This document shows, in pieces, positions 1,784-15,506 of a stretch of 64,000 bases of DNA. The notes below the pieces were generated by a model. That model made no database searches, was not told where the DNA came from, and saw only the letters and a list, made by a program, of their open reading frames with translations. The stretch is from an uncultured Methylocystaceae bacterium (GTDB lineage: Bacteria > Pseudomonadota > Alphaproteobacteria > Rhizobiales > Beijerinckiaceae). The stretch spans positions 1-64,000 of the forward strand of contig CAIQCB010000041.1 of the NCBI GenBank assembly GCA_903870245.1. The letters are read 5' to 3'. Numbering within the stretch: the first letter of the stretch is position 1; each line of letters starts with the position of its first letter. A program made the position numbers and the translations under genes.

Positions 1784-2013
1784 TCAGCCCTTAACGCTGG
1801 AAACGCCGGCCTGCATAAGTTCAGCTCCGGCTCCAGCTAGGGCCGCGATGATTTCCTGCATGTTCGACGATCTCAGCTCGCGCTTGCCAGTCTCAAAAAG
1901 GGAGTTCGTGCGCGCTGATATTTGACAGGCCTCACCGAGGTCTTGCGCGGTCCAATTCAAAAGCTGTCGGGCGGCGCGGCATTGCTCAGGGCGGCGATGC
2001 TGTGGTCGCTCAT
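1784..2013 (-). pseudogene. XRE-family regulator with a frameshift
   Basis: On the minus strand the ATG at 2011-2013 opens MSDHSIAAL and then meets a stop after 18 codons. One frame over, from about 1995, the sequence reads PEQCRAARQLLNWTAQDLGE, then ISARTNSLFETGKREL, and ends AELMQAGVSSVKG at 1784. This is the standard layout of short XRE regulators in alphaproteobacteria, where the start is normally in frame with the PEQCRAAR segment. The frame that holds the helix-turn-helix has a stop directly upstream and no start codon, so a small indel near 1990-2000 has broken the gene. It would have bound operator DNA in the mobile element. Confidence 0.6.
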
Positions 2014-2195
2014 GAGCGGACGCTCACGGCGAAGGGACCAGTCAGCCGGGCGACGAAGCGGTCACGCTGGGCGACGGTCGAGAAGCAAAATTCCGACAGG
2101 TTGCCGGAGTCCGGGTGAAGAAACTGCACGGCGAGACCGGCGGCCCGGTCGGCGTCTCTCTTCGCTCTGGCAAGGGCGATGGTCTCGGGTTTCAC
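2010..2195 (-). CDS. small hypothetical island protein
   Basis: A 61-residue frame with a GTG start at 2195 preceded by a GGAG-type site. It begins MKPETIALARAKRDAD and continues with a helical, charged N-terminal half, then an FLHPDSGNLSEFCFST segment. It overlaps the start of the frameshifted XRE gene by 4 bases (an ATGA-type junction), which suggests the two once formed an operon. I do not recognise a family. Composition and the coupled junction favour a real gene. Confidence 0.45.
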   Translation of the reverse strand: MKPETIALARAKRDADRAAGLAVQFLHPDSGNLSEFCFSTVAQRDRFVARLTGPFAVSVRS

Positions 2196-2303
2196 GCCCT
2201 CCGGCCATTGCTATTCGTGGTTGTGGTCGAATTGCATCGGACAAGCCTCCGGCGTTCGCCGGAAAAGCCTTTCCCGGCGTGGCGTGGTGTGGTAGGGGTT
2301 CAA

Positions 2304-2374
2304 TACCTAGAGGATTAAACGAGCCCTAGGGCATTTTAAATACCCTAGGTATTAAACAAGCTAGAGGGATTAAA
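2304..2374 (+). promoter_or_regulatory. four-fold CTAG repeat, likely operator of the XRE gene
   Basis: CTAG occurs at 2307, 2326, 2345 and 2361, the first three exactly 19 bases apart. Each is followed by an ATTAAA-type tail (AGGATTAAAC, GGGCATTTTAAA, GTATTAAAC, AGGGATTAAA), and the middle ones are palindromes (CCCTAGGG, ACCTAGGGTA read on the minus strand). The block ends at the start codon of the XRE gene at 2374. Repeats in phase on the helix just before a repressor gene are typical of autoregulation. Confidence 0.65.
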
Positions 2375-2616
2375 TGCTAACCAGTGAGCAAGTCAGGGCG
2401 GCGCGGGCGCTTCTACGCTGGGAACAAAAAGACCTTGCCGGCGCGACTCAGGTTTCTTTGCCATCAATTAAGCGCCTCGAAGCCCAGCCCGGCCCTCTTG
2501 CTGCCCAGCCCCGGACAGTCGCCGCGATCCGCGCCGCTCTGGAGGCGGCCGGGGTGATTTTTGTAGACGAAAACGGCGAGGGTCCAGGCGTTCGGCTCAG
2601 GAAGACGAAGCCATGA
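2374..2616 (+). CDS. XRE-family transcriptional regulator
   Basis: An 80-residue protein with an N-terminal Cro/CI-type helix-turn-helix: EQVRAARALLRWEQKDLAGA forms the first helices, VSLPSIKRLEAQPG the recognition helix region, followed by TVAAIRAALEAAGV and the usual GVIFVDENG beta-tail with GVRLRK. The layout and length fit the short XRE proteins common in alphaproteobacterial mobile elements. It likely binds the CTAG repeats that end at its own start codon. The next gene starts within its last codons (ATGA), so the two are probably co-transcribed. The target outside the operon is not known. Confidence 0.85.
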   Translation: MLTSEQVRAARALLRWEQKDLAGATQVSLPSIKRLEAQPGPLAAQPRTVAAIRAALEAAGVIFVDENGEGPGVRLRKTKP

Positions 2617-2876
2617 ACAAGCCCCGCCATCACGATGACCGAACGCGCGCGGCCTATGAGCGCTTCGGCTCAATCGTTTTCTACTGCGGCTTTTTCAGCG
2701 GTATCATTGCAGCTGGCGCATTGCTTTATGCAGAGATGGCCAAAATGAACAAAAGCCTGTTTGAGGCTTTGGCCGGCGACAGCGCGATCGCTCTATCGCT
2801 CATTGCCGCGTTTATGGTGCCGCTCAGCATTGGCTGGGTTGTGCGCTTCTTCATCTCTGGGCGCCGGTATCTATAA
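2613..2876 (+). CDS. small two-helix membrane protein
   Basis: An 87-residue protein overlapping the XRE stop by 4 bases. Two hydrophobic segments are clear: roughly residues 19-40 (SIVFYCGFFSGIIAAGALLY) and 58-82 (AIALSLIAAFMVPLSIGWVVRFF). The first 15 residues are polar and charged and should lie in the cytoplasm. I recognise no family. The coupled position suggests a regulator/membrane-protein pair under control of the CTAG operator, but its role is unknown. Confidence 0.6.
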   Translation: MNKPRHHDDRTRAAYERFGSIVFYCGFFSGIIAAGALLYAEMAKMNKSLFEALAGDSAIALSLIAAFMVPLSIGWVVRFFISGRRYL

Positions 2877-2912
2877 CGCTGGCTCATTATTCAACTGCGG
2901 AAAGATAAGCCA

Positions 2913-3131
2913 ATGTCTGATGTCGTAAGAGACAGCAACGGAACTGAATTGAAAGACGGCGATTCCGTCACTTTGATAAAAGACCTAAGAGTTAAAGGCA
3001 CTTCTACAACTCTGAAGCGCGGAACGATGATAAAAAATATTCGTCTCACGGGAGACCCTGCCGAGATTGAATGTCGGGCAGAAAAAATCAAAGACCTTGT
3101 ATTGAAGACAGAGTTTCTCAAAAAGGCATAA
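2913..3131 (+). CDS. PhnA/YjdM-domain protein, short form
   Basis: A 72-residue protein that matches the C-terminal PhnA domain: VRDSNGTELKDGDSVTLIKD, LRVKGTSTTLKRGT, IKNIRLTGDPAEIEC, and the end LKTEFLKKA. The full-length family (YjdM, about 110 residues) also has an N-terminal zinc ribbon, which is absent here. The name came from the phn locus, but the domain is not known to act in phosphonate breakdown and its role is unclear. Short stand-alone forms are common. It is followed 20 bases later by an XRE-like gene. The gene seems intact, with a plausible start. Confidence 0.8.
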   Translation: MSDVVRDSNGTELKDGDSVTLIKDLRVKGTSTTLKRGTMIKNIRLTGDPAEIECRAEKIKDLVLKTEFLKKA

Positions 3132-3150
3132 AAATCAGGAAGGCCAAGCC

Positions 3151-3348
3151 ATGACGCCGGCGCAATTCAGGACCGAACGGGAGCGGCTGGGCTTCACGCA
3201 AGAGCCAGTCGCCGACATGGCGGATTTGAGCTATGAGACCGTTCGAGATTTCGAGGAAGGTCAGCCGGTCAACGCCGACTTGATCGAATGCCTGCGGGTG
3301 ACGCTGGAGTCGCTGGGCGCCGACTTTGCCTCGGCCGTCGATCAATAA
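3151..3348 (+). CDS. small XRE-like helix-turn-helix protein
   Basis: A 65-residue protein that is little more than a helix-turn-helix: TPAQFRTERERLGFTQEPVA, then MADLSYETVRDFEEG, then ECLRVTLESLGADF. A site reading AGGAAGG lies before the ATG. Proline at the position where most family members have a leucine or an acidic residue is odd (TQEPVA rather than TQEELA). It may be a repressor or a remnant of one. It is the last gene of the short rightward run 2374-3348. Confidence 0.65.
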   Translation: MTPAQFRTERERLGFTQEPVADMADLSYETVRDFEEGQPVNADLIECLRVTLESLGADFASAVDQ

Positions 3349-3444
3349 GCGATCATGCGCAAGATCAGGTGATTTTGTCGACCAGATTAACTAAATGACG
3401 AAGGGTGAGATAGCTCCTCAGATCTTCTATATGAGGCATAGTAG

Positions 3445-4047
3445 ATGACTTATTATGATTTTTTCAAAGATTGGCAGAGCTTAATAAGCTCAATAATAGC
3501 GTTTATTGCAATATTCTTTGGTGCCAATCATAAGTTTAAACTTGATAGAAAACGTGATGACCAATTGAGGGCTGATGAGGCTCGATCTGTGTTAGCAGCT
3601 CTTTATGGTGAAATCATAAGCCTTCGCCAACAAGCCGGTAAATTAGCAGAATTTCTTGGAAAAACAGAAATAAATGATAGTAAAGAATATTTTGATACTG
3701 ATCATCTTAAGAGACATTACTCTTTAACGGAGCCGTTTCTATATAAGCAACTGACATCTAAAATCGGACTAATCGACCCAAATATAATCATCGAAATCGC
3801 AGATTTTTATAGAACTTATGAGGAAGCCAGGAGAGAACTTTTTAAATTAGGAGATGTTAGGCTAATCGACTGCTCGGAAGATAGATTCATCATGTACCGA
3901 TGCTGCGAAGCTGTTAAAATTGTTGAGCCGACTCTGAGAAAGATCGAGGCAATTCTAATAATAAATTCCGCAAGCGAAGTTGATATAGAAAGCGCTAAAT
4001 GGGTAAAAGAGATTGATGAAACAATGTATGATGAAATAAATTCCTAA
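3445..4047 (+). CDS. AT-rich orphan, membrane-anchored protein
   Basis: A 200-residue protein in strikingly AT-rich sequence. One membrane helix lies near the N terminus (about residues 11-25, SLISSIIAFIAIFFGANH), followed by a charged KFKLDRKRDDQLRADEA region and a mostly helical soluble part. No catalytic motif or known domain is recognised. The overall form (one N-terminal helix, then a long helical cytoplasmic domain) resembles hypothetical proteins carried by defence and mobile islands. Base composition differs sharply from the chromosome, so recent transfer is likely. Function unknown. Confidence 0.65.
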   Translation: MTYYDFFKDWQSLISSIIAFIAIFFGANHKFKLDRKRDDQLRADEARSVLAALYGEIISLRQQAGKLAEFLGKTEINDSKEYFDTDHLKRHYSLTEPFLYKQLTSKIGLIDPNIIIEIADFYRTYEEARRELFKLGDVRLIDCSEDRFIMYRCCEAVKIVEPTLRKIEAILIINSASEVDIESAKWVKEIDETMYDEINS

Positions 4048-4306
4048 ATTAATTTCATTAATATGTATCTATGCCGGAAATTCATAGCATTAAAACTCCA
4101 TGATAGATACAGCTATCGCCTCGTGTAATTAATTACGATGACATGCGGCCTGCTTTGTATAGTTGCTCATTTTGATGGTTACTTACATCCCACCCTTAAG
4201 ATAAAGGAAATTGCCTCTTGACTAAAAAGTGATTCTCCGGAATGTTTAATTTTGGCGTTTGTGAGTTTTATGTTTTTGATTTTATCCATTCATCCGGAGC
4301 GTAAAA

Positions 4307-4921
4307 ATGCGAGGAAAACTCCTGCAAATACTTTCTGCCTCCTTATTTTTTTCTTGCGGACACGCGTCGGCTGTTGAAGTAACCTATGCGTTGCCTTGGG
4401 ATGGCACGACCTTCATTTCGAATTGGGGATCGGGGAATAATTCAACACACACATACGCACAAAGCTTTGGCTCAAGTTATTTACCGATATTCCATACTAC
4501 AACCAGCATCTCTTTTTATTATAAGTTGTTGTCTGGTTCCCCGCAATCATATACATTTTCCCTATATAAATATGGCGGAAATGGTCCTTTAAGTGCAAAT
4601 CCATTATCCACTAACAGCCTTACCCCGTTTTATACTACGGGGGTGTTAACGGCACCCTCTTCAACATCATCCTTTACTAAGGTAACATACGATTTAAGCG
4701 GCCTTCAGCTTTCTGGAGTTAATAATTCTCCGGCATATTATTATGCTACAATATCTACGTTGGGTCTAGCGAACTCAGATGGTGAATATGGCATAGGTGG
4801 AACAGGCTTAGTTGGATCAGGCTATGGAGGTTTTATATATAATAACAATCAAACGTTAAATACTTCTTGGCAACTCAGCAATGCTTATATGGCCTATGAA
4901 GTCACAGGTCTTTCTAATTGA
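4307..4921 (+). CDS. secreted beta-rich protein of unknown function
   Basis: A 204-residue protein with a clear signal peptide (MRGKLLQILSASLFFSCGHA, cut probably after HASA). The mature part is rich in Ser, Thr, Gly, Asn and Tyr with alternating beta-strand patterns, such as SISFYYKLLSGSPQSYTFSL and SSFTKVTYDLSGLQLSG. It resembles the beta-sandwich proteins often found with PEP-CTERM anchors, but no PEP motif, C-terminal helix or basic tail is present. The sequence is AT-rich like the gene before it. The 258 bases upstream carry no gene. I cannot name a function, and surface exposure or secretion is inferred from the signal peptide alone. Confidence 0.65.
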   Translation: MRGKLLQILSASLFFSCGHASAVEVTYALPWDGTTFISNWGSGNNSTHTYAQSFGSSYLPIFHTTTSISFYYKLLSGSPQSYTFSLYKYGGNGPLSANPLSTNSLTPFYTTGVLTAPSSTSSFTKVTYDLSGLQLSGVNNSPAYYYATISTLGLANSDGEYGIGGTGLVGSGYGGFIYNNNQTLNTSWQLSNAYMAYEVTGLSN

Positions 4922-5209
4922 AGTAATTATAAATACGTATCCTCGCAGGCGCACATGTCTTCAGAGATATTTTCCATAGTATAAGGCTTTTCTGATCGAC
5001 CATTTTTTGGTATTGATTAACTGACACAGCGACATCTTAGTAAATTTTCATGAAACTATGCTGACAAAGACTTAAAGCTCTGGATATTTATCGGGAAAGC
5101 CTACCCGGTATTCGGGATGCTCTTACGCTCAACGGAAACGGTCCTGGCTCGCGTCTGGCGCTGGCGCGATGCTCTACTATGAACGGCCGGCGCGTCAATT
5201 CAGCCTTTA

Positions 5210-5461
5210 TCAAGCGTCCGCTTTCGGCTTTATCACGTCGTCGATAATGGCGGCGATCTTGACATCGGCTCGATCCAGCGCAGCTTCTAAGCCAGCGCGG
5301 TATTCGGGCGACACGTCCGCCGAATCGATCAGGAGTTCAATCGACCGGCGGGTGTCTGCGGATAGCAGTGTGAGCAGCTCTCGCGCCTCATCGCTTCGTA
5401 TTTTGCCGGGAGGAACGGATGCGATGTCGTCTGACGGCGGGGGGCGGTAAGGTCGTGTCAT
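5210..5461 (-). CDS. hypothetical protein paired with the small terminase
   Basis: An 83-residue protein starting inside the last codons of the small-terminase gene (ATGA overlap), so the two are translationally coupled. The sequence is helical: SDEARELLTLLSADTRRSIE, then AGLEAALDRADVKIAAIIDD. There is no known motif. It is the last gene of the leftward cassette. In phage genomes this place is often taken by a small packaging or head protein, but that is context only. Confidence 0.55.
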   Translation of the reverse strand: MTRPYRPPPSDDIASVPPGKIRSDEARELLTLLSADTRRSIELLIDSADVSPEYRAGLEAALDRADVKIAAIIDDVIKPKADA

Positions 5462-5937
5462 TTCTTTCCTTTGGCGAGCCGGTTGCGTTCGGCTGAAAAT
5501 TTTGCGCGGGCGCGGGCGACTGCGCCCTCGATATGATCATCTATGCGCTGGCGAATGGTCAGGTCGCGGGTAACGGCGGCGCCAAGCCCCGCCAGTTCTG
5601 TCCGCCAAGTGCCCATCACGTCAGAAAAGATTGCTTCGGCGTCGGCGAGCTCAACAAGCTGGCCTTGTTCGCGAGCGATCCGAAGCTCGATCTCGCGGGC
5701 GCGCGCCCGATGCACGGCGGCGGCTTCGGCTGTTTTTGATGTCCGGCGTTCCTCGTCCTTGAGCCATCGAATATAGCCCTGCACGCAGGCGACCAATGGG
5801 ACCATTCCGCGCGCGGGTCTCGGAATCCTGCCATCGCGGCACAGCTGGCGCAGATAGGTCGGCGTGATCGTCAGGAGCGCAGCCGCCTGGTCGACCGTAA
5901 TAAGATTGGCGCGCTTCTCAGGCGTCGTTTTCGTCAC
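5458..5937 (-). CDS. Nu1-type terminase small subunit
   Basis: From the GTG at 5935-5937, which has an AGGAGG site 7 bases before it, the product is 159 residues. The longer frame to 5970 lacks a ribosome site. The N terminus has a winged-helix-type HTH (ITVDQAAALLTITPTYLRQL, then CRDGRIP), as in phage lambda Nu1. The rest is a helical region with YIRWLKDEERRTS, EIELRIAREQGQLVE and a VMGTWRTELAGLGAAV segment typical of Nu1-like proteins. The protein recognises phage DNA for packaging and normally works with a large ATPase subunit. No large subunit is visible anywhere in the window, which fits a satellite element or a decayed prophage. Confidence 0.8.
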   Translation of the reverse strand: MTKTTPEKRANLITVDQAAALLTITPTYLRQLCRDGRIPRPARGMVPLVACVQGYIRWLKDEERRTSKTAEAAAVHRARAREIELRIAREQGQLVELADAEAIFSDVMGTWRTELAGLGAAVTRDLTIRQRIDDHIEGAVARARAKFSAERNRLAKGKK

Positions 5938-6205
5938 CGTCAGGCCTCCTGAAACGAAACAAAACCGCAATTTTCGAAAATTTTGTCACGCAAAAGCATC
6001 GGGCGGTCGCGCCGCCTCACGTTGCACTGCATCGAAAAGGAACCTTAAGGTCACGGCGGCGGGCTGGCGTGGCGCGCCCCGGCCGAAGCCAGGGCGCGAT
6101 GCGATGCTGATCGGATTGACGCCCAACGAATTTCGGGGGGAGGTGATCTTCTCTTGCCGTTGTTGGGTGCATCGCTTCACCCTCAAAGGTCTGCCCCCCT
6201 GTTGG

Positions 6206-6574
6206 TTATTGCAGCGTCGTCGGATCGAGCGGCGAGAAGGTCGACGCGGCGCGGGCACCGATGGCCGATTGCGTCCGCATGGTCTGCAATGCCGCGATGG
6301 CGGCCTCGGCGCTCATGTCTGTCTGAAGGGCCAGATGCTTGGCGGCTTGTTCGCGCCCCTTCGCGGCGGGTGATTCAATTATCTGGCGGCAGCGTTCCCT
6401 ATAAGCTTTTGCGCCTTCGGCCTGCCCTTGCTCGAAGCCGGCCTTTCGGCCTTCGGTCAGTCCGGCCTTCACGCCCTCGGGGTAGGATTCTGTGTAGCTT
6501 TGCTGCAATCCTTCGGCTTTTCCGACTTCGTAGGCGTTTGTGAGAGCTTCGTCGCTGTAAAGTTCTGTGGTCAT
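6206..6574 (-). CDS. protein like the scaffold tail of phage S49 head protease
   Basis: A 122-residue protein. The C-terminal part (RCRQIIESPAAKGREQAAKH, then LALQTDMSAEAAIAALQTM) closely resembles the C-terminal tails of phage S49-family head proteases, a region that in several phages acts as scaffold. The N-terminal part is a Glu/Gly/Ala repeat (AEGLQQ, EGVKAGL, EGRKAGF, EQGQAEGAKA) that should form a helix. The protease domain itself is absent and the start is clean, so this is not simply a cut gene. In phage satellites, scaffold-like proteins redirect capsid size, which makes a similar role here worth considering. The function is inferred. Confidence 0.6.
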   Translation of the reverse strand: MTTELYSDEALTNAYEVGKAEGLQQSYTESYPEGVKAGLTEGRKAGFEQGQAEGAKAYRERCRQIIESPAAKGREQAAKHLALQTDMSAEAAIAALQTMRTQSAIGARAASTFSPLDPTTLQ

Positions 6575-6602
6575 CGGTCTGTCTTTCTGTTCGTGGTTGT
6601 GG

Positions 6603-7616
6603 TCAGTCTTCGCGCGGCGCCGGCCCCTCGATCCCGAGCAGGGCGCGCACGTCCGAGCTCTCGCGGCGTGGGATTTGCTGGAGGTGTTCGCGCGCCAACT
6701 CGATCAAGGTTTCTTCGGTACGCTCCAAAGCCAGCAGCTCGCGATCGATTCCGACAAGTCGAGTCTGGCGATCTTCCGGCGACAATGACGAAGCATCGTC
6801 ATTTTCCTCATCGATCAGGGAATTAAATTGCTCGATCATCTTGTCACGGAATAGCCACGCGATCATTCCGATGGCGTCGACCGGCGCCCGAGTCATGCCG
6901 GGAAGTTGTGCTCTCTCGTCGAGAGAAAGCATTGGTTCTTGTCCGGCTTCGAGAGTCGGGAAAATATCCGGGCGGCCGTGCGCAGCGAGGCGGTTGACGA
7001 AACCGGCGACAATTTTTTTTGCGTCGGCGGAAGGAAGCGGCGAGTTTTTCACGCTCTCCCGCTCATCGATCAGCCGGGTGATCTTGACTCGGAGTTTTTC
7101 AATTTCGGTCGGGATGTCGGATGACCGAGTGATCTTCGGCGCTGGCGCGGCGAGCGCCAGAGTTATACCGGAGGGGTTTCGAATATCCTCCAGATACCGT
7201 TCGCACCGTGCAACGGCCCGCGCCAGTGGTTGTGTTTTCTCGGATCGAGAGACGTATTCCGCCTGCAATGATTTGATTTTTGCGGTCAGAATTTCGACGT
7301 TCTGGCGCTCTTTTAAAACAAGAGGATGATCGTCTGCGAGTCGTTCGCGAGATTGCAATTCAGCAATTCTTGAGAGGATGTTTTCTCGGAGCTTCGATTG
7401 CTCTTGCAGATTTCTGTAGGGTGTCATGTGCGCAGCGCGGAGGATTTCTACTTCGTCGCGGAGAGCGCGGAGTTTCGCGGCGGCGGGCGCGGGGAGTTTA
7501 TCAGCAAGATCGATGTCAAGCCGCGTCGCTCCGGCGGCCGGGTCGGACTCGCCGGCTAGCGTGATTAAATCGCGCTTGGGGCGAAGGCCCGATGCGCTCA
7601 TTTCAAGATCAGTCAT
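6603..7616 (-). CDS. coiled-coil hypothetical protein of the cassette
   Basis: A 337-residue protein without signal peptide or membrane helix. Several heptad-like regions are visible: about residues 47-100 (AKLRALRDEVEILRAAH, then LQEQSKLRENILSRIAELQS), 105-145 (VLKERQNVEILTAKIKSLQA) and 165-190 (EIEKLRVKITRLIDERES). The C-terminal third contains an acidic LIDEENDDASS stretch and LALERTEETLIELAREHLQQ. I know of no family. Its position between the DNA-binding genes and the packaging-type genes would suit a structural or assembly factor, but this is only context. Confidence 0.6.
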   Translation of the reverse strand: MTDLEMSASGLRPKRDLITLAGESDPAAGATRLDIDLADKLPAPAAAKLRALRDEVEILRAAHMTPYRNLQEQSKLRENILSRIAELQSRERLADDHPLVLKERQNVEILTAKIKSLQAEYVSRSEKTQPLARAVARCERYLEDIRNPSGITLALAAPAPKITRSSDIPTEIEKLRVKITRLIDERESVKNSPLPSADAKKIVAGFVNRLAAHGRPDIFPTLEAGQEPMLSLDERAQLPGMTRAPVDAIGMIAWLFRDKMIEQFNSLIDEENDDASSLSPEDRQTRLVGIDRELLALERTEETLIELAREHLQQIPRRESSDVRALLGIEGPAPRED

Positions 7617-7647
7617 TCGTGGTTCCTTCTTGTGTGTGATTTAGAAG

Positions 7648-8031
7648 TTAGACCGGCGAATGTGTTCTTGAAATAATCTCGTCTGCACTTTCTGCACAGA
7701 TCGCACTTTTTGCGCGAGGCGGTTTGTCGAAGATAGCTCGCAAAGCGGCTTCGTCGAAGCGCCAGCCAGCGGTTTCTGTTTTCCAGCCGATATCCGGTCG
7801 GCGACGTGCGAGGCTGTAGATCCATGTTCTAGACATGCCGCTGATGCGCTCGGCTACGCAGATATTGATGGCTCTGCCGTGCCCTGGCCTTCGCGCTGAC
7901 GCGCTGGGTTCCGGCTGTGTGTTCATGCCTTTGATGATGCTCGCGGCCTCATCGGCTAGCTGGGCCAAGGCGTCGACATGCGCCGCGCGTTCGGTTTCAA
8001 TCTCTCGCAATCGATCAAGCTGCGGCGTCAT
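7648..8031 (-). CDS. small HTH-containing hypothetical protein
   Basis: A 127-residue protein. The first 35 residues form a coiled-coil-like helix (LDRLREIETERAAHVDALAQ). In the middle, INICVAERISGMSRTWIYSL, then ARRRPDIGWKTETAGWRF, looks like a helix-turn-helix with a wing. The start overlaps the previous gene's end by 17 bases. It may be a DNA-binding protein of the cassette, for example in packaging or control, but I cannot assign a family. Confidence 0.5.
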   Translation of the reverse strand: MTPQLDRLREIETERAAHVDALAQLADEAASIIKGMNTQPEPSASARRPGHGRAINICVAERISGMSRTWIYSLARRRPDIGWKTETAGWRFDEAALRAIFDKPPRAKSAICAESADEIISRTHSPV

Positions 8032-8248
8032 GTCCAGCTATCCGTTTCTCGATATGGGAGATGTCGGCGTCGAATTTCGACAGCGTTTTATCGGGTAGCA
8101 ATAGCTCCTTTGCCCGGTCTCGGATCAGGCGCATGGTCACAAGTTCTTGCGCGTCGGCGGCGGCGTCGCGTCGATTGAGGGCAAGTTTAGATTTCCAGAA
8201 TGCGTCAGAAAAATCGTTACGCAGATTGCGTTGTCTCTTAAAGTTCAT
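8015..8248 (-). CDS. small hypothetical protein
   Basis: From the ATG at 8246-8248 the product is 77 residues, basic at the N terminus (MNFKRQRNLRNDFSDAFWKS) and helical further on (ELVTMRLIRDRAKELLLPDK). A longer frame reaches 8284, but MNFK is the better start. No family recognised. It lies between two genes on the same strand in the cassette and overlaps the next one. Confidence 0.5.
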   Translation of the reverse strand: MNFKRQRNLRNDFSDAFWKSKLALNRRDAAADAQELVTMRLIRDRAKELLLPDKTLSKFDADISHIEKRIAGHDAAA

Positions 8249-8338
8249 GGCGACAATCCTGTCTTGATGCGTGACGGCGCGCACCCGAGGGCGCGCCGCT
8301 CTGCAGAGCGGGAAAATTTTCGATCTTCATTCTGCGGC

Positions 8339-9286
8339 CTAGTGAAGGCTGAGGCGATGCGACAAGCGGCGCCCCATGCGATGAGGGCCTCGTATCGGCG
8401 GGTTGCGCAACGCCATTTCGAGGACTCGGGCGGCGAGTCCGCCAGTCTCGATATCGTTTCCGTTGTATGGGGCGACTGGCTCGAAACCGCGCCGACGACG
8501 AAGACGTGCGGCGATGTCGGCGAGACTTTCGGGGGGCGGATCATTTGCTGGGTGATGGCGAGACGGGAGGGCGTAGCCCGATCCGGCGGTGTTTGGGTTT
8601 ATATTATTGTTCACGCACGGACCTGTCTCGCACGGGCCTGTCTCATCGGGATTTTTGACCATTACGGAAATATGCGCTCCCGTTCGATACCATTTCGCGC
8701 GAGACATTCCGGCGGCCTCCCATGGTTTTGATCTTGCCTTGCAGCTTTCGAGATATTCAGCCCGCGCCACTCCGCCGGACTCTTTTCTGCGCACGGCTTG
8801 ACGCTGCGCATGTCGCGCCTTTGCCGCCTCGATCCTGTCTTCTCTAGAACCGTCGATCGTTCCGATGCGCCACGCCTTCGCCGTCCGACGTTCGTCTTCG
8901 GTCACGCACAGCAGCTTGCCGATGGCGTCCGCGCTCATGGGGATATGGTGCGGGCGGCCGATGCGCTCGGTTTCGGATTCGCGCCAGCGGATTGTTTCGG
9001 CGACTTGAAGCGCGATGTCTTCGGCGCTGCAGTCGATGCCGCAGCGGGTGGCGAAACGTAGCAGGCTTGACTGATCGAGACCCCAGCGCGCGGGCGCGGC
9101 GCGGGTGATTTCCTCCTGGCCGGGCGGCGCCGATGACAAGACATTGGCCCCGACTTTCAGCCATGGCCCCGGATCGAGGGCACGGCCTTCAGCGCGCATG
9201 ACGTCGGCGAGTCTGTATAGGTCCGCCAACATCCACGACGCCAGACGGCGGGCAGCGGCTTTTTTGCCGCGCCTTTTCATTTTCAT
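8339..9286 (-). CDS. mobile-element DNA-binding-like protein
   Basis: A 315-residue basic protein. The visible layout is a helical N-terminal region (ASWMLADLYRLADVMRAEG), a part reading MSADAIGKLLCVTEDERRTA, a strongly basic linker (RIEAAKARHAQRQAVRRKES), and then KPWEAAGMSRAKWYR, which is a short HTH-like signature (SRxxWYR). I have seen this combination in proteins of alphaproteobacterial islands and plasmids, where it sits near replication or integration genes, but its biochemical role is not established. A short tandem ETGPC-ETGPC repeat precedes a low-complexity tail that may be disordered. It starts 4 bases after the AlpA-like gene, so the two form an operon. Confidence 0.6.
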   Translation of the reverse strand: MKMKRRGKKAAARRLASWMLADLYRLADVMRAEGRALDPGPWLKVGANVLSSAPPGQEEITRAAPARWGLDQSSLLRFATRCGIDCSAEDIALQVAETIRWRESETERIGRPHHIPMSADAIGKLLCVTEDERRTAKAWRIGTIDGSREDRIEAAKARHAQRQAVRRKESGGVARAEYLESCKARSKPWEAAGMSRAKWYRTGAHISVMVKNPDETGPCETGPCVNNNINPNTAGSGYALPSRHHPANDPPPESLADIAARLRRRRGFEPVAPYNGNDIETGGLAARVLEMALRNPPIRGPHRMGRRLSHRLSLH

Positions 9287-9290
9287 ACAC

Positions 9291-9581
9291 TCACGTGGCT
9301 CTGTCTGAATTGCGAGACATGGCGAGCTTTGTCTTTTTGATACGCTCCACCAGCTCAGGGCTCAGCTTGTCGCTGGTCGATGTCATCGGAGCCGAGATTT
9401 GCGCCTCGGCCCATTCGTCAAGCCATTCGACAGTATAAGCCCGGAATCTCCCGATCTTGACGAAGCGGGGTCCGCCGCCTCGGGATGCCAGCTTAGTCAG
9501 GAGATTACTCGTACAGGGCCGTCCGAACTTGGTGCGAATGTGTGCGGCGGAGTCTTCAGAATTCAGATATTTCTGAACCAT
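9291..9581 (-). CDS. AlpA-like / excisionase-type HTH protein
   Basis: A 96-residue protein with a helix-turn-helix of the excisionase/MerR-like type: YLNSEDSAAHIRTKFGRPCT, a Gly-rich turn (ASRGGGPRFVKIGRFRAY) and TVEWLDEWAEAQ. The phrase GGGPxFxKIGRxxxY, followed by a short helix, is the hallmark of AlpA-type regulators. In P4-like elements and Gram-negative phage satellites such a protein controls excision and the island's other genes. It is the first gene of the leftward operon 5210-9581, and its promoter should lie in 9582-9708. Confidence 0.75.
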   Translation of the reverse strand: MVQKYLNSEDSAAHIRTKFGRPCTSNLLTKLASRGGGPRFVKIGRFRAYTVEWLDEWAEAQISAPMTSTSDKLSPELVERIKKTKLAMSRNSDRAT

Positions 9582-9708
9582 ATTTTTCGCCTCCAGAGAG
9601 GCGCTTAACTGACTTATTCGCGCCTCGAAATTGATCCGACGCGATTAGGGTGCCGATTTGTGCTAGAGGCTTCAAAGATATTTTGAATTATTTATGCGTT
9701 CAAATTTA

Positions 9709-10380
9709 TCAGGGCCCTTTTTGGGACTGTTCGATTAGATAACCTCCAGGATTATCAATTAATTTCCGATTCTCGCTTTTGGGGCCATTGTTTATATATG
9801 ACCGGATGGTGTTGTCTTTGATCTCGTCCTTGTGCCAACCTGCTTTTTCAAAAATAAATCGTGCAAATACGAGAGCTGCTCCATAGCAAATTTCGTTAAC
9901 TGCATCGTATGAAATATAAGGGCGTTCTCCGAAAATATTCTGAAATGCATTATAAACAAATTGCCCCAAGAATAGCTCGCTATCAAAATTGTCTTTTACG
10001 TGATATTCGATTTCTTCTTCATCAATGCCCTGCATGAATAATGCATAGTCTGTCATTATGGTTAAATTGTCTTTTTTAGCTTTAGAAATATCATCGAAGT
10101 CAAAAGATTTTGTGTAAGGATTATTCGGCCACAATTCGTTCATTTCCTTAAGTGCTTCGGCCATTTTTTTTGCTTGTTTAGCTATATTAACAGCCGCGCG
10201 AAATACCTTCGCATTACTAGCAATGTTTGCTTTTCTCTTTTTATGTTTCTTTGCAAGAAAAATAAGCCCTAACATTACACCTACTGTGATTTCGTCATTT
10301 ATTCTTGAGTTCAATCCAACGGCCGATTCCAATTCATCGCAAAACATCTGCTTTAATTTTGCAAATTCTTCTTTCTCCAT
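9709..10380 (-). CDS. AT-rich orphan protein
   Basis: A 223-residue protein in AT-rich DNA, taking the ATG at 10378-10380 (MEKEEFAKLKQMFCDELESA). The frame remains open to 10485, but that extension overlaps the integrase end and looks unlike protein. A helical region with one likely membrane or buried segment (ITVGVMLGLIFLAKKHKKRK) is followed by a polar C-terminal part containing DNAVNEIC-like helices. It has no clear ribosome site. I do not recognise it. AT-rich cargo next to an integrase is a typical place for accessory genes, so a defence or fitness role is possible, without direct evidence. Confidence 0.6.
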   Translation of the reverse strand: MEKEEFAKLKQMFCDELESAVGLNSRINDEITVGVMLGLIFLAKKHKKRKANIASNAKVFRAAVNIAKQAKKMAEALKEMNELWPNNPYTKSFDFDDISKAKKDNLTIMTDYALFMQGIDEEEIEYHVKDNFDSELFLGQFVYNAFQNIFGERPYISYDAVNEICYGAALVFARFIFEKAGWHKDEIKDNTIRSYINNGPKSENRKLIDNPGGYLIEQSQKGP

Positions 10381-10414
10381 TGCTGAAAGTATTTTTTTTC
10401 CTTTCTTTCTTTTT

Positions 10415-11704
10415 TCATTTGCGACCCCTCCCCTTGCGCAAGGGCCTCGCCTGTGGCGCCGGCTTTCCGTCAAGTGCAGCTGCAATGGTCGCTCCGATTG
10501 TGTCGGCGGCGCGCTTCATTGGATCCGCTGCTAGGTGCGCGTAACGCGCTGTCGTCTGTGGCTGGGAGTGTCCGAGGAGCTTGCCGATTATTGGAAGCCC
10601 CAGCGAAGCCCCTGCCCCGACGCTCGCGAAGCTGTGGCGCAGGTCATGAAGCCGCACGCCCTCAAGGCCAGCTGCTCTAGAAACGGCCGCCCACGGCTTC
10701 GCAAGATCGTGGCGTGGCTCGCCGCTCTTCGCCCCAGCGATGACGTGCGGATTACCTTCTATGCGCGGCAAATCGGCCAACACGGCCTGAGCGGCGGCGC
10801 CAAGGAAAACTGGTTTCTTGCCGGTTTTACTGTCAGGCAAAAACAGAATGCCCCGCTCCCAGTCGACCTGAGACCATTGCAAGCCGAGGATTTCCCCAAG
10901 ACGAGCGCCGGTCAGCAGCAAAATACGAATCGCCCCGATCGCAAAGGGGTCGACTTTTATTCGCCGGTTCTCCGGTTTGGGAGCATGTTTCGACCCCGAC
11001 TTTGTGGGGTCGACCTCGTAGGGCAGGCCCTCACCCTCGGCGAGCCGCAGAGCGTCGCCGAGCCGGATCAGCTCCTCAGTCGTCAGGTAGCGCTCTCGGG
11101 CATTCTCCCGGAACCTTTCGATTCCCTTTATAGGATTCGAACCTGAGACCACATCGCCGATTTTCGAGGCGTAGCTCCACATCGAAGACAGAACTGCCAG
11201 CGTCCGGTTTGCGGTCGTCGGCGTCGCTTTCAGACTGGCGCGCAACGCGGCAATGTCTGCCCTTTTCAGGTCGCGCATGAGTGTTCGGCCAAGGACCGGG
11301 CGGATATAGGAGTCGACGATCCGGCGGTACTCGAGGGCGGTTTTCGGCTTTCGGAAGGGCTCGACGTGCTCTTTCAAGAATTCGTCGGCGATGGCCGAGA
11401 CCGTCCTGGCCTCTCGCGCTTCTCGTTTTTCGCCAGCAGGATCTTCACCGGCCGCGACGGCGCCCAGTATTTTGAGCGCTTCCAGTCGCGCTTGCTCTGG
11501 CGTTTTCGGCCCGTGTGCGCCGATCTTGATGCGCTGCGACTGCCCATGCCGCCGGAACTGGACAACATAAACCTTTTGGCCGGATTCCAGCGCGTAGACG
11601 CCGAAGCCCCGCAGGGCCGTGTCCCAGAGGAATTGTTGCTTAGGCCCGGGTGCCTGCCATTGGAAAGCGTCGACAGTCCTTTTGCTTATCTTGTCTCGCG
11701 CCAT
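10415..11704 (-). CDS. tyrosine-type site-specific integrase
   Basis: A 429-residue P4/DUF4102-type integrase. Residues 1-90 are the N-terminal arm-binding domain (LRGFGVYALESGQKVYVVQF), about 100-195 the SAM-like core-binding domain, and about 205-400 the catalytic domain. The catalytic set is complete: Arg268 (TGARLGEI), Lys293 (DSKTGKK), His353 and Arg356 (HDLRH), His379 (LLGHSQ) and Tyr388 (ARYAH). It should integrate and excise the island at the tRNA-Thr 3' end 180 bases upstream of its start. Repeats in that gap may be its arm sites. It is transcribed leftward, away from the attachment site. Confidence 0.95.
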   Translation of the reverse strand: MARDKISKRTVDAFQWQAPGPKQQFLWDTALRGFGVYALESGQKVYVVQFRRHGQSQRIKIGAHGPKTPEQARLEALKILGAVAAGEDPAGEKREAREARTVSAIADEFLKEHVEPFRKPKTALEYRRIVDSYIRPVLGRTLMRDLKRADIAALRASLKATPTTANRTLAVLSSMWSYASKIGDVVSGSNPIKGIERFRENARERYLTTEELIRLGDALRLAEGEGLPYEVDPTKSGSKHAPKPENRRIKVDPFAIGAIRILLLTGARLGEILGLQWSQVDWERGILFLPDSKTGKKPVFLGAAAQAVLADLPRIEGNPHVIAGAKSGEPRHDLAKPWAAVSRAAGLEGVRLHDLRHSFASVGAGASLGLPIIGKLLGHSQPQTTARYAHLAADPMKRAADTIGATIAAALDGKPAPQARPLRKGRGRK

Positions 11705-11751
11705 GTCATTTCCGAACCGGGGGCCACGGTCTCATAATCAGTGGGCCGAAA

Positions 11752-11843
11752 GTATAAGCATTGTATAAGCGTTTGAAAGGAATATCAAGAAAGGCCAAGG
11801 AATTGATCGGCACTTGAAAGCACAATATTTCAAGAGCTTATAT
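11752..11843 (+). promoter_or_regulatory. repeats between integrase and attachment site, possible arm sites
   Basis: GTATAAGC occurs at 11752-11759 and 11763-11770, exactly 11 bases apart, and an inverted near-copy GCTTATAT lies at 11836-11843. Between them CTTGAAA (11813-11819) and TTTCAAG (11828-11834) form an inverted repeat. Short repeats here, spaced by a helical turn, fit integrase arm or excisionase binding sites; the region must also contain the integrase promoter. Confidence 0.5.
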
Positions 11844-11885
11844 ATTCAGTGGAAGCTAGAGGTGCGTCGAAAAAGGCCGAAAAAC

Positions 11886-11934
11886 CTGATTTGTAATCAG
11901 TAGGTCTGGGGTTCGAATCCCTCAGTCGGCACCA
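11886..11934 (+). other. attachment site (attR): 3' half of tRNA-Thr(TGT)
   Basis: The 49 bases start CTGATTTGTAATCAGTAGG, then carry the T-arm GGTTCGAATCC and end CAGTCGGCACCA. This is the anticodon-to-CCA part of tRNA-Thr with anticodon TGT. The 5' half is missing: the sequence to the left has no D-arm or acceptor strand. Tyrosine integrases use tRNA 3' ends as target and leave such a copy at the far end of the island, so the island lies to the left and the chromosome to the right. The working tRNA should be at the other end, outside the window. I found no second copy in the window. Confidence 0.85.
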
Positions 11935-12099
11935 CCCGCCCCTCTCCGTCAGGAGGCAATGGCCAACTCGTTGGGTCAAGGATCCAAACCTTTATGCAGA
12001 GTTGCTCCCTCAAGATGCCATCAAATCCTGTGTAAATTCTGATTTGCTTGTGCTTTATATTGAAGCATTGGGATCCAGTAGCATGAGGGGAGCGTATTG

Positions 12100-12765
12100 A
12101 TGTCAGAGTTGGATCAATCGCCATTTACTTTCAGCGAGTTCACAGAAAACCCCGAGCCGCGTTGTGCTTGCCTGCTGCTCCTCGATACGTCTGGCTCTAT
12201 GGGCGGAGCACCAATTCGCGAGCTAAATGAGGGCCTCCGCACCTTCAAGGAAGAGATTTCACAAGACAGCCTAGCAATGAAGCGGGTTGAGATAGCCGTT
12301 GTGACGTTTGGCCCTGTCAAGGTGGAGACCGATTTCCAGACAGTAGACATATGGCAACCTCCCCACTTGACCGCATCCGGGGATACACCAATTGGGGCCG
12401 CAATCGTGAAAGGCCTAGAGATGCTTCGTCAACGGAAGGACCAATATCGCACCAATGCCATCGAAGTTTTTCGGCCATGGGTTTTCCTCATGACGGATGG
12501 CGGACCAACCGACGAGTGGCAGCAAGCGGCCGACTTGATACGCCAAGGTGAAGCGAATAAGGGATTTGCTTTTTTTGGCGTCGGCGTTGAAGGTGCCAAT
12601 ATGGAGGTCCTTGGAAAGATTTGCGTTCGAACGCCTGTTAAATTAGCTGGCCTGAAATTTAAGGACATGTTCGCTTGGCTATCATCATCACTATCTAACG
12701 TGTCATCCTCGCAACCTGGTACAACCGTACAGATCGCTCCTCCGACAGGATGGTCAGAGGTGTAG
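12100..12765 (+). CDS. yegL: VWA protein of TerY-P triad (YegL-like)
   Basis: A 221-residue von Willebrand factor A protein from the ATG at 12100, which follows a GAGGGGAG site. The MIDAS metal site is visible as Asp29-Thr-Ser31-Gly-Ser33 (LLLLDTSGSMGG), with the later threonine in DTPIGAA and Asp in MTDGGPTDEW. This is the TerY/YegL form. Such proteins bind a metal ion and are thought to act as assembly or adaptor partners. The PP2C gene begins one base after its stop and the kinase follows, so the three are one operon. The DNA is less GC-rich than the genes to the right, consistent with acquisition. Confidence 0.85.
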   Translation: MSELDQSPFTFSEFTENPEPRCACLLLLDTSGSMGGAPIRELNEGLRTFKEEISQDSLAMKRVEIAVVTFGPVKVETDFQTVDIWQPPHLTASGDTPIGAAIVKGLEMLRQRKDQYRTNAIEVFRPWVFLMTDGGPTDEWQQAADLIRQGEANKGFAFFGVGVEGANMEVLGKICVRTPVKLAGLKFKDMFAWLSSSLSNVSSSQPGTTVQIAPPTGWSEV

Positions 12766-12766
12766 T

Positions 12767-13552
12767 ATGGGGCGTCCGTCGTGGCGCGTCGCTTCAGCCT
12801 GCGAAATTGGCACCTCGCATGTTGGTTCTGGCACTCCCTGCCAAGACTATTCTGTGCAGGCGACCATCCAGACCAAAGATGGGCCAGTTCTAGTCGTTAT
12901 CGTCTGCGACGGTGCTGGCAGCGCCATACATTCAGAAATTGGATCATGGCTGGCTTCCACAACATTCTTGGAACTTGTCGAGGTTCACTTCGAGAATGGT
13001 GGAAGTCTGGTAGATATCGACCGGACTACTGCCGCTGATTGGATCGGGCGCACGGCCGATCGGCTAATCGCGCGAGCCAAAGATGACGACAACTCCCCCA
13101 AAGACTATTCCTGCACTTTACTTGCTGCGGTCGTCGGTGATCAGGCAGCTGTCTTCGTTCAGATTGGTGACGGTGCAATCGTTGTTAGCCATGGCGGTGA
13201 GGATGGTTGGAACTGGGTATTCTGGCCACAACACGGCGAATACGCAAATCAGACAGTGTTTATTTTATCCTCAAATGCGGTAGATGAGTTGCAATTCGAT
13301 TTGGCACCACGCCAAATCGACGAATTCGCCGTGTTTTCAGACGGCATAGAACGCTTGGTTCTTCACGCTGCCACCAAGACGGTGAATGATAAATTTTTCG
13401 ATCAAATGTTCGCGCCAATTCGTGCATCAACAGCGCGAGGACTAGACAAAACACTTTCCGCACAACTACAGGCGTATCTTGGTTCTTCAGTCGTCAACGC
13501 AAGAACCAATGACGACAAAACTTTAGTCATGGCAACACGGCGGCCTCGATAG
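12767..13552 (+). CDS. yegK: PP2C-type protein phosphatase of TerY-P triad (YegK-like)
   Basis: A 261-residue PP2C-family phosphatase. The metal-binding motifs are recognisable: GTSHVGSGTPCQDYSVQ near residues 15-31, VIVCDGAGSA with Asp48-Gly49, QIGDGAIVV in the middle, and FSDGIERL with a C-terminal NDDKTLV. The short, divergent form is that of YegK. In E. coli, YegK removes phosphate from targets of the partner kinase YegI. Here the order VWA-phosphatase-kinase and the 1-base and 10-base gaps show the same unit. It probably acts in the cytoplasm, opposing the kinase encoded next. Confidence 0.85.
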   Translation: MGRPSWRVASACEIGTSHVGSGTPCQDYSVQATIQTKDGPVLVVIVCDGAGSAIHSEIGSWLASTTFLELVEVHFENGGSLVDIDRTTAADWIGRTADRLIARAKDDDNSPKDYSCTLLAAVVGDQAAVFVQIGDGAIVVSHGGEDGWNWVFWPQHGEYANQTVFILSSNAVDELQFDLAPRQIDEFAVFSDGIERLVLHAATKTVNDKFFDQMFAPIRASTARGLDKTLSAQLQAYLGSSVVNARTNDDKTLVMATRRPR

Positions 13553-13562
13553 GGTCCATGAC

Positions 13563-15506
13563 ATGGCACCACTTGATTTAATGGATAGTCAAGGCAGGCT
13601 TATTTCACTAGGCCCCTTGCTCGGCAAAGGCGGCGAAGGATCTGTTTTTGAAATCTTACAGACAAAAGGAATTGTCGCCAAAATCTATCATAAACCTTTA
13701 ACTTCAGATCGTACAGAAAAGATCAAGGCGATGTCAACAATTCGGACAGACGCGTTGTCCAAGTTCACATCATGGCCAATTGACCTTGTTGTTATGCGCA
13801 AAACGCGTCAGCCGATTGGCCTGCTAATGCCAAGGATTTCTAATCGGAAAAACATCCATCACCTATATGGACCCAAAAGCCGCCTCCAAGATTTTCCTAT
13901 GGCTGATTGGCGTTTTTTGGTGCGTACCGCAGCGAACATAGCCCGAGCTTTTGCAGTAGTACATGATGCGGGCTGTGTCGTAGGTGATGTCAATCATGGC
14001 TCCATAATGGTTGCAGAGGATGCAACGGTCTGCCTTATCGATTGTGACAGTTTTCAAGTTAGTGCGCTTGGCCGACAGTTCCTTTGCGAGGTTGGTATAG
14101 AAACATTCACGCCCCCAGAGCTTCAGGGCATGCCATTCCGAGGAGTTCTGCGTACACCGAACTATGACAATTTTGGCCTAGCGGTGATGATCTTCCACTT
14201 GCTTTTCATGGGGCGCCATCCATTCGCCGGTCGATTCAGCGGTGCTGGTGACATGCCAATTTCACGCGCAATCAAGGAGTTCCGTTTCCCGTATAGCATG
14301 AATCATAGAGCTATGCAGATGGATCCGCCTCCAGGAACTCCGCCGCTCTCGTTTGTCAGTAGCGACGTGGCACACTTATTCGAGGCAGCATTCTCTCCAG
14401 AAGCGACAAAAGGAGGGCGTCCAACCGCTCGCACGTGGGTATCTGCCATGCAGACACTTGAGAAAAACACCAAGCGTTGCGGGGCGAACCATAGTCACTG
14501 GCATCCTGCCCATCTTTCTCAATGTCCTTGGTGCCGCATGGAGGTTCAGGGTGCGAATCCTCTCTTCCCCTTTGTCCTTCCATTTAAAGCTGGTTCGCCT
14601 TGTCATACCCCGGACCTTGATGTTCTGTGGCGGCAGCTTGCCGGACTACCTACACTCGGACCAGCCCCCACCGTGCCTATACAGCAGGTAACACCATCTC
14701 TCACTGCACAAAAACTCGGTAAGCCACAAAAGCTCGCCACCCCCGTCGCGTCCATCCTTGGTATTGGAGCGTTCCTCGCTGGTACGGTCATGCTCCCACC
14801 GTTATTTTTTATCTGGGGAATTATTGGAATAGTTGCATTTAACATTACTTTGAAAGCTTTGAGCAAAGCAGAGGAAGTTAACCGCTTTAAAGAAGTCATG
14901 AACGCTGCTGACACTAGATTTAAACAAGCAGAATCTGACTGGCGCAACCGTGCTAACGAACAAGCTTTCAAGGATGCAAAACAAAGGTTTGTGGAGTTCA
15001 AGAATGAATTCGATCAAATTCCCACCGAACGCCATCGTTTACTCGAACAACTAAAGCGGAACAAGAAAAAGCTACAACTCGATCGATTCCTTGACAAATT
15101 CGATCTGGAAGATGCCAAAATAGAGGGAATTGGACCGGGCAGGAAACGCACGCTGGAATCATATGGGATTGAAACAGCAAAAGATATTGTGCCACATCGC
15201 ATCAGCGCCGTTCCCGGTTTTGGTCCAAGATTGATTGATCGCTTGATGAAATGGCGACAGTCCGTTGAAGCTAATTTCCTATTTGATGCCGCAAAAGCAA
15301 TCGATCCACGAGATGTTGCCAAGGTAGAGCAAGATGTCCTGCTTCTTCGGTCTAAGGCCGAAAGTTCTGCGAAGGCAGCGCACACGGAAGCAATGCAGGC
15401 GCACGCTAGGATCACTGTCGTCAGACAGACACTACGCTCGCAATTAGATGCTCTACAGGCGGCATTGGCGCAGGCGCGCGCCGATTATGAGTATGTCAGT
15501 CGGTGA
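13563..15506 (+). CDS. yegI: kinase with zinc ribbon, TM, coiled coil and HhH (YegI-like)
   Basis: A 647-residue protein. Residues 15-290 are an atypical protein kinase: glycine loop GKGGEGSV at 21-28, Lys40 (VAKIYHK), catalytic-loop equivalent GDVNHGSIMV at 141-150 and LIDCDSFQV around Asp160. The usual HRD is replaced by VGD, as in this family. A zinc-ribbon-like set follows (Cys306, Cys321, Cys324 with nearby His). A hydrophobic hairpin spans about 396-430, a coiled coil about 434-505, and a helix-hairpin-helix pair about 517-565 (IEGIGPGRKRTL and VPGFGPRLIDRL), which should bind DNA. This layout matches YegI and the kinase of the TerY-P triad. Confidence 0.9.
   Translation: MAPLDLMDSQGRLISLGPLLGKGGEGSVFEILQTKGIVAKIYHKPLTSDRTEKIKAMSTIRTDALSKFTSWPIDLVVMRKTRQPIGLLMPRISNRKNIHHLYGPKSRLQDFPMADWRFLVRTAANIARAFAVVHDAGCVVGDVNHGSIMVAEDATVCLIDCDSFQVSALGRQFLCEVGIETFTPPELQGMPFRGVLRTPNYDNFGLAVMIFHLLFMGRHPFAGRFSGAGDMPISRAIKEFRFPYSMNHRAMQMDPPPGTPPLSFVSSDVAHLFEAAFSPEATKGGRPTARTWVSAMQTLEKNTKRCGANHSHWHPAHLSQCPWCRMEVQGANPLFPFVLPFKAGSPCHTPDLDVLWRQLAGLPTLGPAPTVPIQQVTPSLTAQKLGKPQKLATPVASILGIGAFLAGTVMLPPLFFIWGIIGIVAFNITLKALSKAEEVNRFKEVMNAADTRFKQAESDWRNRANEQAFKDAKQRFVEFKNEFDQIPTERHRLLEQLKRNKKKLQLDRFLDKFDLEDAKIEGIGPGRKRTLESYGIETAKDIVPHRISAVPGFGPRLIDRLMKWRQSVEANFLFDAAKAIDPRDVAKVEQDVLLLRSKAESSAKAAHTEAMQAHARITVVRQTLRSQLDALQAALAQARADYEYVSR

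Follow-up and report, generated by a model that had tools for sequence, protein, structure and literature searches.

We asked whether a cassette of phage-like genes at positions 5210–11934 of a 64000-nucleotide stretch of DNA (positions 1–64000 of contig C41, here called the window), from a bacterium of the genus Methylocystis (Hyphomicrobiales, Alphaproteobacteria; genome of 3.2 Mb in 66 contigs), is a phage satellite or a reduced prophage, these being the two possibilities raised by an earlier sequence-only reading. Judged by its ends, genes and relatives, the element is very probably a phage satellite, estimated at about 14.8 kb in all, with 14.4 kb seen. The satellite reading was supported by the finding of the left attachment site, by recurrence of the cassette in other elements, by a packaging site shared with a prophage on contig C18 of the same genome and by a relative that closes as a circle; the left end, the packaging site, the candidate helper, the family and the circle are additions to what had been read before. 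The explanation that we hold to be very probable as a whole is that of an intact-looking Methylocystis satellite with an IS5-type insertion near its left end, the steps of its packaging by a helper being deduced. The parts of the cassette were present as described, the AlpA assignment being weak, but the element proved larger than the cassette, with window positions 1–5210 forming its distal half and its left end lying on another contig, C39.

Boundaries, gene order and early genes

The left attachment site was found at an intact tRNA-Thr (TGT) gene (C39:15412–15487), and the right one is a copy of the 3′ end of this tRNA gene at positions 11886–11934 (plus strand), matching C39:15439–15487 at 48 of 49 bases. 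The island comprises C39:15488–17961, the unseen middle of an insertion and window positions 1–11934, the last being its right part (about 11.9 of the estimated 14.8 kb). Contig C39 ends 2.47 kb past the tRNA gene, inside the C-terminal DDE part of a transposase, and C41 starts within an N-terminal transposase part (positions 2–322, minus strand; PF05598, 1.4e-17), in an orientation that agrees with the end piece of C39. From these pieces, which we take to be of IS5 type, we infer that the two contigs join across the insertion; an IS5-type copy on contig C52 covers the C41 side only.

No large terminase, portal, capsid or tail gene had been visible in the sequence-only reading, and none was found here, either in window positions 1–11934 or in the C39 piece, so that the stretch from the left end to position 5210 was also without them, the unsequenced IS5-type piece apart. 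This search used Pfam and PHROGs on the ten island proteins and, for the left part, Pfam on six proteins or fragments and PHROGs on one; the called genes of the left part, where the frames are at most 237 amino acids (aa) long, were also compared by BLAST with prophage genes. Lytic genes were not found by the Pfam and PHROGs family searches of the ten island proteins and of the left part, the sole route by which they were looked for. Having an integrase and an attachment site pair, and no full virion set found outside the IS5-type gap, the integrated element is by these searches made up as a satellite is.

Read from right to left on the minus strand, the genes encode an integrase, a low-GC protein, an AlpA-like protein, a 315-aa protein, an 89-aa protein and a helix-turn-helix (HTH) protein, followed by a 337-aa coiled-coil protein, a 122-aa scaffold protein, a non-coding gap, the small terminase (TerS) and an 83-aa protein. 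Everything from the integrase through TerS has this one transcription direction, and a small HTH gene and an accessory region beyond TerS have the opposite one. The tyrosine integrase (429 aa; 10415–11704, minus strand; phrog_1 3e-59, PF00589 5e-17) is complete, as had been stated, and the DNA-binding-like protein of the earlier reading corresponds to an HTH regulator or excisionase-like protein at 7648–8031 (minus strand; phrog_66 5.5e-4). The AlpA-like regulator (9291–9581, minus strand) stood in part: it is 39–45% identical to small genes at the same place in four sister elements (L058, L060, L061 and L062), but its profile match is weak (phrog_66 0.017, no Pfam match). It also gave no BLAST match to AlpA of the stretch presumed to be EcCICFT073, a phage-inducible chromosomal island (PICI) considered further below.

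The 315-aa gene (8339–9286, minus strand) probably encodes a replication initiator, as suggested by near-repeats, by repeats in its homologues and by its position, sitting where sister elements have a primase; the protein has no Pfam or PHROGs family match. At positions 8615–8644 it holds two adjacent 15-bp repeats with one mismatch beside an AT-rich stretch, a feature matched by 2 of 500 codon shuffles. Exact repeats of at least 11 bases are absent from the gene itself; of four homologues, those in C29, L061 and L068 contain longer exact repeats in roughly this position, and the one in L162 has none. An origin inside the initiator gene is thus a possible arrangement here, and it is the one found in phage lambda, where the origin lies within gene O.

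Packaging site, scaffold domain and candidate helper

The Nu1-type small terminase of the sequence-only reading was readily recognized (5458–5970, minus strand; phrog_57 2.4e-21), and comparison with a possible helper gave 49% identity to TerS of the lambda-type prophage on C18. The recognition stretch has 6 of 21 residues identical, the adjoining stretch 22 of 24 and the C-terminal part 36 of 85 (boundaries set by eye), a pattern that fits a changed DNA target.

In the gap between the scaffold and TerS genes, just upstream of TerS, a pattern search and a lambda-cos scan both pointed to a lambda-type cos site (6005–6044, minus strand), consisting of a cosQ-like GGTTCCTTTT (6035–6044), 18 bases and a cosN-like GGCGGCGCGACC (6005–6016). 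The order and spacing of cosQ and cosN beside a Nu1-type TerS are, as predicted here, those of lambda-type packaging. All five satellites of another genome of the genus, G009, bear GGGCGGCGACC, the 11 bases with which the left end of lambda begins; GGGTCCTTTC of lambda begins 30 bases ahead of GGGCGGCGACC, and GGTTCCTTTT of the G009 satellite L058 begins 31 bases ahead.

Using the pattern GGTTCCTTTYN{14,28}GCGGCG, with the reversed pattern as control, four places were matched in the whole 3.2 Mb host genome (reversed control 0), these being the window island, the C18 prophage and two places on C19 and C38 that are pieces of other satellites. Within the window the pattern was expected 0.01 times by chance and found once, and in G009 the only five matches were the five satellites (reversed control 1). 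In a pattern-independent scan with 115 bp of lambda cos, the proposed site ranked first in 8 of 13 loci, among them the present one (rank 1 of 236 chunks). Among IMG/VR phage contigs, a similar signature was seen upstream of TerS, at 77–79 bases in L180 and L185 (full TerS-to-capsid module), 0.7 kb in L189 and 4.2 kb in L183. A relaxed pattern occurred in 9 of 30 IMG/VR loci with a related TerS, five of them with the large terminase TerL, one a satellite and three with neither, a count made without a shuffled control; two exact patterns gave 0 and 1 matches in IMG/VR, the one being the circular satellite L210. A scan of named genomes with TerS alone gave no match.

The stand-alone tail of a phage protease scaffold was likewise confirmed, as a head-maturation-protease scaffold domain of 122 aa lacking the protease domain (6206–6574, minus strand; phrog_17040 4e-10, phrog_53 1.6e-7), which aligns to residues 303–422, in the C-terminus, of the 459-aa head protease of the C18 prophage with 37% identity. 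The scaffold of lambda, Nu3, corresponds to the C-terminal portion of its protease C.

The C18 prophage itself has a small terminase, a GpA large terminase, a portal, an S49 head protease, a decoration protein, capsid E and tail genes, and spans at least about 42 kb when early genes common to contig C6 are counted. With its cos site of the satellite pattern and its related TerS, it appears as a possible helper whose packaging signal and packaging gene the satellite matches. Contig C6 carries another prophage, with a small terminase that is related and with a site resembling cos. The phage Mae-JY30 (L171, PP438422) has the TerS-to-capsid order of the C18 prophage, with a cosQ-like stretch and no cosN match; recorded from Microcystis, it gave the best terminase matches in the phage collection, and its true host is worth checking. 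G009 gave no match to the C18 large terminase, yet it has kept five satellites, which therefore persist there in the absence of that prophage.

Near the C18 prophage, at about 80–85 kb of the contig (L015, 10008–15141), a Cas9-like 1079-aa gene, Cas1- and Cas2-like genes and an array of at least nine spacers were named by eye. Comparing nine host CRISPR spacers with the collected loci gave one match, with 5 mismatches and in the prophage, which is not informative, and no satellite match within 5 mismatches among the loci collected by then.

Sister elements and the hallmark protein

The coiled-coil protein of the sequence-only reading (337 aa; 6603–7616, minus strand) is all-helical, with long helices, in an AlphaFold2 model that is mostly confident (pLDDT 80.7, pTM 0.65; residues 1–33 and a loop not confident); it has relatives in sister elements and is here called the hallmark protein. 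The window copy had no match among 50697 phage or 72556 plasmid records, and its profile met coiled-coil background only among PDB sequences (best E 0.25). Because of its constant place just ahead of captured virion genes, its position suggests a role in head assembly; that it might be an external scaffold like Sid of P4 is a guess from its anatomy. The P4 gene set comprises psu, sid, delta and the alpha primase, and no such Pfam family was found among the ten island proteins, the Pfam coverage of these genes being unchecked.

When the same cassette was sought in related genomes, it was found in separate elements. G009 has five hallmark elements (L056–L060), four with TerS, four with the scaffold as found by BLAST and three with a tape measure protein after TerS, and a tRNA gene adjoins four of the five. 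Direct repeats anchored at tRNA genes, 12.7–16.3 kb apart, bracket 8 of 10 hallmark loci (L057–L066); the check failed for L061 and L064, the repeat in L059 is only 15 bp long, and L056, which is without a tRNA, was left out. The recurring order is integrase, small HTH gene, replication gene, hallmark, scaffold, cos and TerS, with gaps in L057 (without TerS), L061 (no TerS match) and L059 (no BLAST match for the scaffold). Tape measure proteins, present in three of the five G009 elements and in C19 and lacking in the window island, resemble that of C18 in their two end parts (46% over 128 residues and 45% over 102). L065 also matches the C18 tape measure by BLAST, and in a PHROGs tape measure search L065 and L085 fail at 1e-6. 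Fragments of two or more additional satellites are present in the host genome (C29, C28, C19 and C38).

Among the G009 copies, dN/dS was 0.19–0.44 for the hallmark, 0.07–0.35 for TerS, 0.16–0.38 for the scaffold and 0.12–0.15 for the tape measure. These satellites are also mosaic, a distal 372-aa primase/helicase-like gene being near-identical in all five (dN ≤0.006), and their primases, when compared, are strongly different except between L058 and L060.

Searching with the hallmark profile, we found it in at least 16 of 397 genomes and at least 10 of 141 genera of the order, some matches covering 30–60 residues only, and, for the class, in at least 4 of 385 genomes, of which one is that of the host and the other three gave partial matches; these counts are lower bounds, with at most five candidates scored per genome. 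Seven IMG/VR contigs carry hallmark relatives. Sorting the 30 IMG/VR TerS loci by their neighbours gave 21 with TerL, 3 with the hallmark, 6 with neither and 0 with both, within the flanks covered and with some contigs being near-duplicates. One IMG/VR contig, L210 (13664 bp), has the hallmark, scaffold, TerS, tape measure and cos together, and its first 123 bases are repeated at its end, giving a circle of 13541 bp.

The virion parts beside the hallmark gene differ from element to element: protease and capsid E in L066, capsid E in L168, a capsid (by BLAST only) in L187, protease, tape measure and TerS in L169, protease, scaffold, TerS and tape measure in L082/L210, protease and baseplate genes in L085, and tape measure and portal in L084. 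L083 has a portal-like BLAST match 7.8 kb from the hallmark, and L086 has a capsid family that is separated from the hallmark by an integrase gene. We give about equal weight to accepting and to doubting that the hallmark defines a new satellite family, mainly of Hyphomicrobiales, in which a constant assembly-control adaptor or size determinant would be combined with varied captured virion parts, from free scaffold, protease and capsid to tape measure and baseplate, to give heads and, in many members, tails that are chimeras of helper and satellite proteins. The hallmark protein also offers a way of searching for satellites that may escape the current profile sets.

Three of these loci drew attention for other reasons. 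The head protease and baseplate genes of the hallmark element L085 lie at 10753–19155, within the part of its contig that was covered. L064 has a TIR-TM defence gene (7740–8591; PADLOC 3e-76) near its hallmark gene, possibly satellite cargo, and L063 (G031) has two genes with weak to moderate defence-model matches at 5134–8232, its hallmark being split into two frames.

Proposed mode of action, alternatives and remaining genes

In the sequence of events that we propose, growth of a phage with a lambda-type head module, like the C18 prophage, would lead the AlpA-like regulator to turn the island on, whereupon the integrase would excise it and the initiator would replicate it. The satellite TerS would direct the gpA-type large terminase of the helper to the satellite cos, bringing the DNA into helper heads, and the free scaffold domain, probably together with the coiled-coil protein, would compete with the protease-linked scaffold of the helper, such that the head would be altered or shrunk. 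Some sisters, since they encode a tape measure protein, may in addition exchange the tail ruler.

The elements look like a new satellite family, similar in its working to Gram-negative PICIs and not necessarily one of them. The sequence-only reading had known of no description of the gene combination in this group of bacteria; nothing in the open-licence papers searched contradicted this, and we found there neither satellites reported from Methylocystis nor a free protease-scaffold domain reported for any Gram-negative satellite, the search for satellites of this bacterial order yielding mostly unrelated papers, but the general kind, that of Gram-negative PICIs, is well known. As portrayed in PMC6092414, PICIs of the EcCICFT073 type resemble the island in a size of about 15 kb, an integrase, an AlpA-type regulator (a weak assignment here), own replication (probable here), lambda-type cosQ and cosN and the lack of a virion set, with some PICIs carrying terS; they are there called especially common in Enterobacteriaceae and Pasteurellaceae, and EcCICFT073 is credited with two proven cos sites. 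The island differs from EcCICFT073 in adding the free protease-scaffold domain and the hallmark protein.

For direct comparison, the EcCICFT073 stretch in CFT073 was placed by an estimate of gene numbers. A loose cos pattern has three matches in it, two of them alike, and RefSeq lists a major capsid and a head decoration protein there (L179, 20669–22071). One alternative, which we consider unlikely though no other fares better, is that the island belongs to the family of EcCICFT073 as an ordinary, if divergent, Gram-negative PICI. Such a placement would account for the integrase, the AlpA-like gene, the probable replication gene with repeats, the lambda-type cos, the size of about 15 kb and the single direction from integrase to TerS, and the capsid and decoration genes of the presumed EcCICFT073 stretch find a parallel in the capsid genes of some sisters. 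It is at odds with the BLAST results, in which the integrase of the island alone matched among the 20 proteins of that stretch (22%) and TerS, scaffold and hallmark had no match; genes shared exclusively with PICIs were thus not found in the one reference stretch compared. More distant elements matched further genes of the stretch, namely AlpA (L166 and L170), primase (L167 and L168) and SSB (a C29 protein).

A second alternative, doubtful to a similar degree, concerns the heads: about three copies of the island (about 44 kb) would fill a normal head between cos sites, with no shrinkage, and the scaffold and coiled-coil proteins would merely interfere with helper assembly. According to the 2018 paper (PMC6092414), EcCICFT073 has none of the capsid morphogenesis genes known from SaPIs and goes into heads of full size, and the candidate helper, at 42 kb or more with its early genes, is near three times 14.8 kb. 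Head remodelling is suggested instead by the dedicated scaffold domain and by the whole capsid gene in the sisters L066 and L168, in line with CpmB of SaPIs and Rcm. With SaPI CpmA/CpmB and Rcm (PMC8569155 and PMC12409344), a small scaffold-like protein competes with the helper scaffold, that of SaPI1 lying beside the satellite TerS. The island departs from SaPIs in that its scaffold corresponds to the C-terminal part of an S49 head protease of lambda type, and in having cos rather than pac as packaging signal. Capsid-forming PICIs (PMC10690885) have a parallel in the hallmark relatives L066 and L168, which carry their own capsid E; in contrast to those PICIs, no own large terminase, portal or capsid was found in the window island. 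The tape measures of sister elements, finally, have a counterpart in PLE of Vibrio cholerae, for which PMC12987554, from March 2026, describes an own tape measure and chimeric tails, with putative cases in capsid-forming PICIs, and because of that report a satellite tape measure is not new in itself. The Methylocystis elements differ from PLE in their lambda-type packaging, in having a prophage as candidate helper and, for the window island, in lacking a tape measure gene. We know of no gene common to PLE and the Methylocystis satellites.

Far less probable is a phage-interference locus without transfer of its own, in which TerS and scaffold would act as decoys; the low-GC accessory region and the TIR-TM defence gene in the hallmark locus L064 would suit such a locus, whereas a cos with cosQ/cosN spacing, a probable origin, an integrase and a circular relative would not. 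Least probable of all, and rejected, is a decaying lambda-type prophage with a random remainder of genes, the second possibility of the sequence-only reading: the relationship of TerS and the scaffold domain to prophage genes and the IS5-type insertion within the element are what decay could leave, but a similar selection and order of parts recurs in the five G009 elements and in other genomes, dN/dS of 0.07–0.44 for hallmark, TerS, scaffold and tape measure indicates purifying selection, the hallmark is without a match among the phage records, and one relative was assembled as a closed circle. Unrelated insertions lying side by side were rejected, since the gene order recurs in the five G009 elements and others even though some parts are missing in some elements.

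Returning to the satellite that we favour, several points count against it. The contigs are joined by inference across the IS5-type insertion, with a few hundred bases unseen; and the empty-site comparison failed, the right flank not being conserved. The AlpA assignment is weak, and no structure in PDB or BFVD matched the hallmark model in Foldseek at E 0.001. The C18 prophage is no more than a candidate helper, and its cos is situated 3.1 kb upstream of its small terminase gene. Genus-wide, 22 of 39 genomes match the cos pattern, with sites inspected in G000 and G009 only, and the reversed control also matches many genomes; the scan with lambda cos is unsuccessful in 5 of the 13 loci (L057, L061, L062, the C18 prophage, at rank 30, and the C6 prophage). 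Higher dN/dS was obtained for primases (0.31–0.69) and the 315-aa gene (0.45), and the 123-bp repeat of L210 could be an effect of assembly.

The published satellites that we encountered are mostly those of Enterobacteriaceae, Pasteurellaceae, Vibrio and Gram-positive bacteria. With a methanotroph family that has a lambda-type cos and a free scaffold of nameable parent, redirection of head size could be tested using two small genes and a single candidate prophage, and the sister tape measures support, in another bacterial group, the chimeric-tail report of 2026 (PMC12987554). Methylocystis oxidises methane, and elements of this kind, perhaps moved by phages together with accessory genes, are a possible route of gene exchange.

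Of the remaining genes of the island, the low-GC protein between the integrase and the AlpA-like gene (9709–10485, minus strand) had no Pfam match at 0.001, no PADLOC match and a best PHROG of 0.0076, and the 89-aa protein (8015–8284, minus strand) is 82% identical to the copy in the C29 satellite. Downstream of TerS, the 83-aa protein (5210–5461, minus strand) is 40% identical to one at the same position in C38 and 39% in L082. The accessory region (3445–4921, plus strand) has a low GC content (0.38–0.43) and two genes (200 and 204 aa) without Pfam or PADLOC matches. A small HTH regulator (2374–2616, plus strand; PF13560 6.5e-4, below the cut-off of that family) is placed as in sister elements, HTH-like small genes being similarly situated, by eye, in L011, L012 and L056–L060. 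The gene at 434–787 (minus strand) is a distal-end gene common to sister satellites, with 41% identity to the last gene of L058 (E 2.7e-5). Just to the right of the island, window positions 12100–15506 encode a VWA protein and a PP2C phosphatase and, after them, hold a gene that by eye is kinase-like, a set that we take to resemble the TerY-phosphorylation triad.

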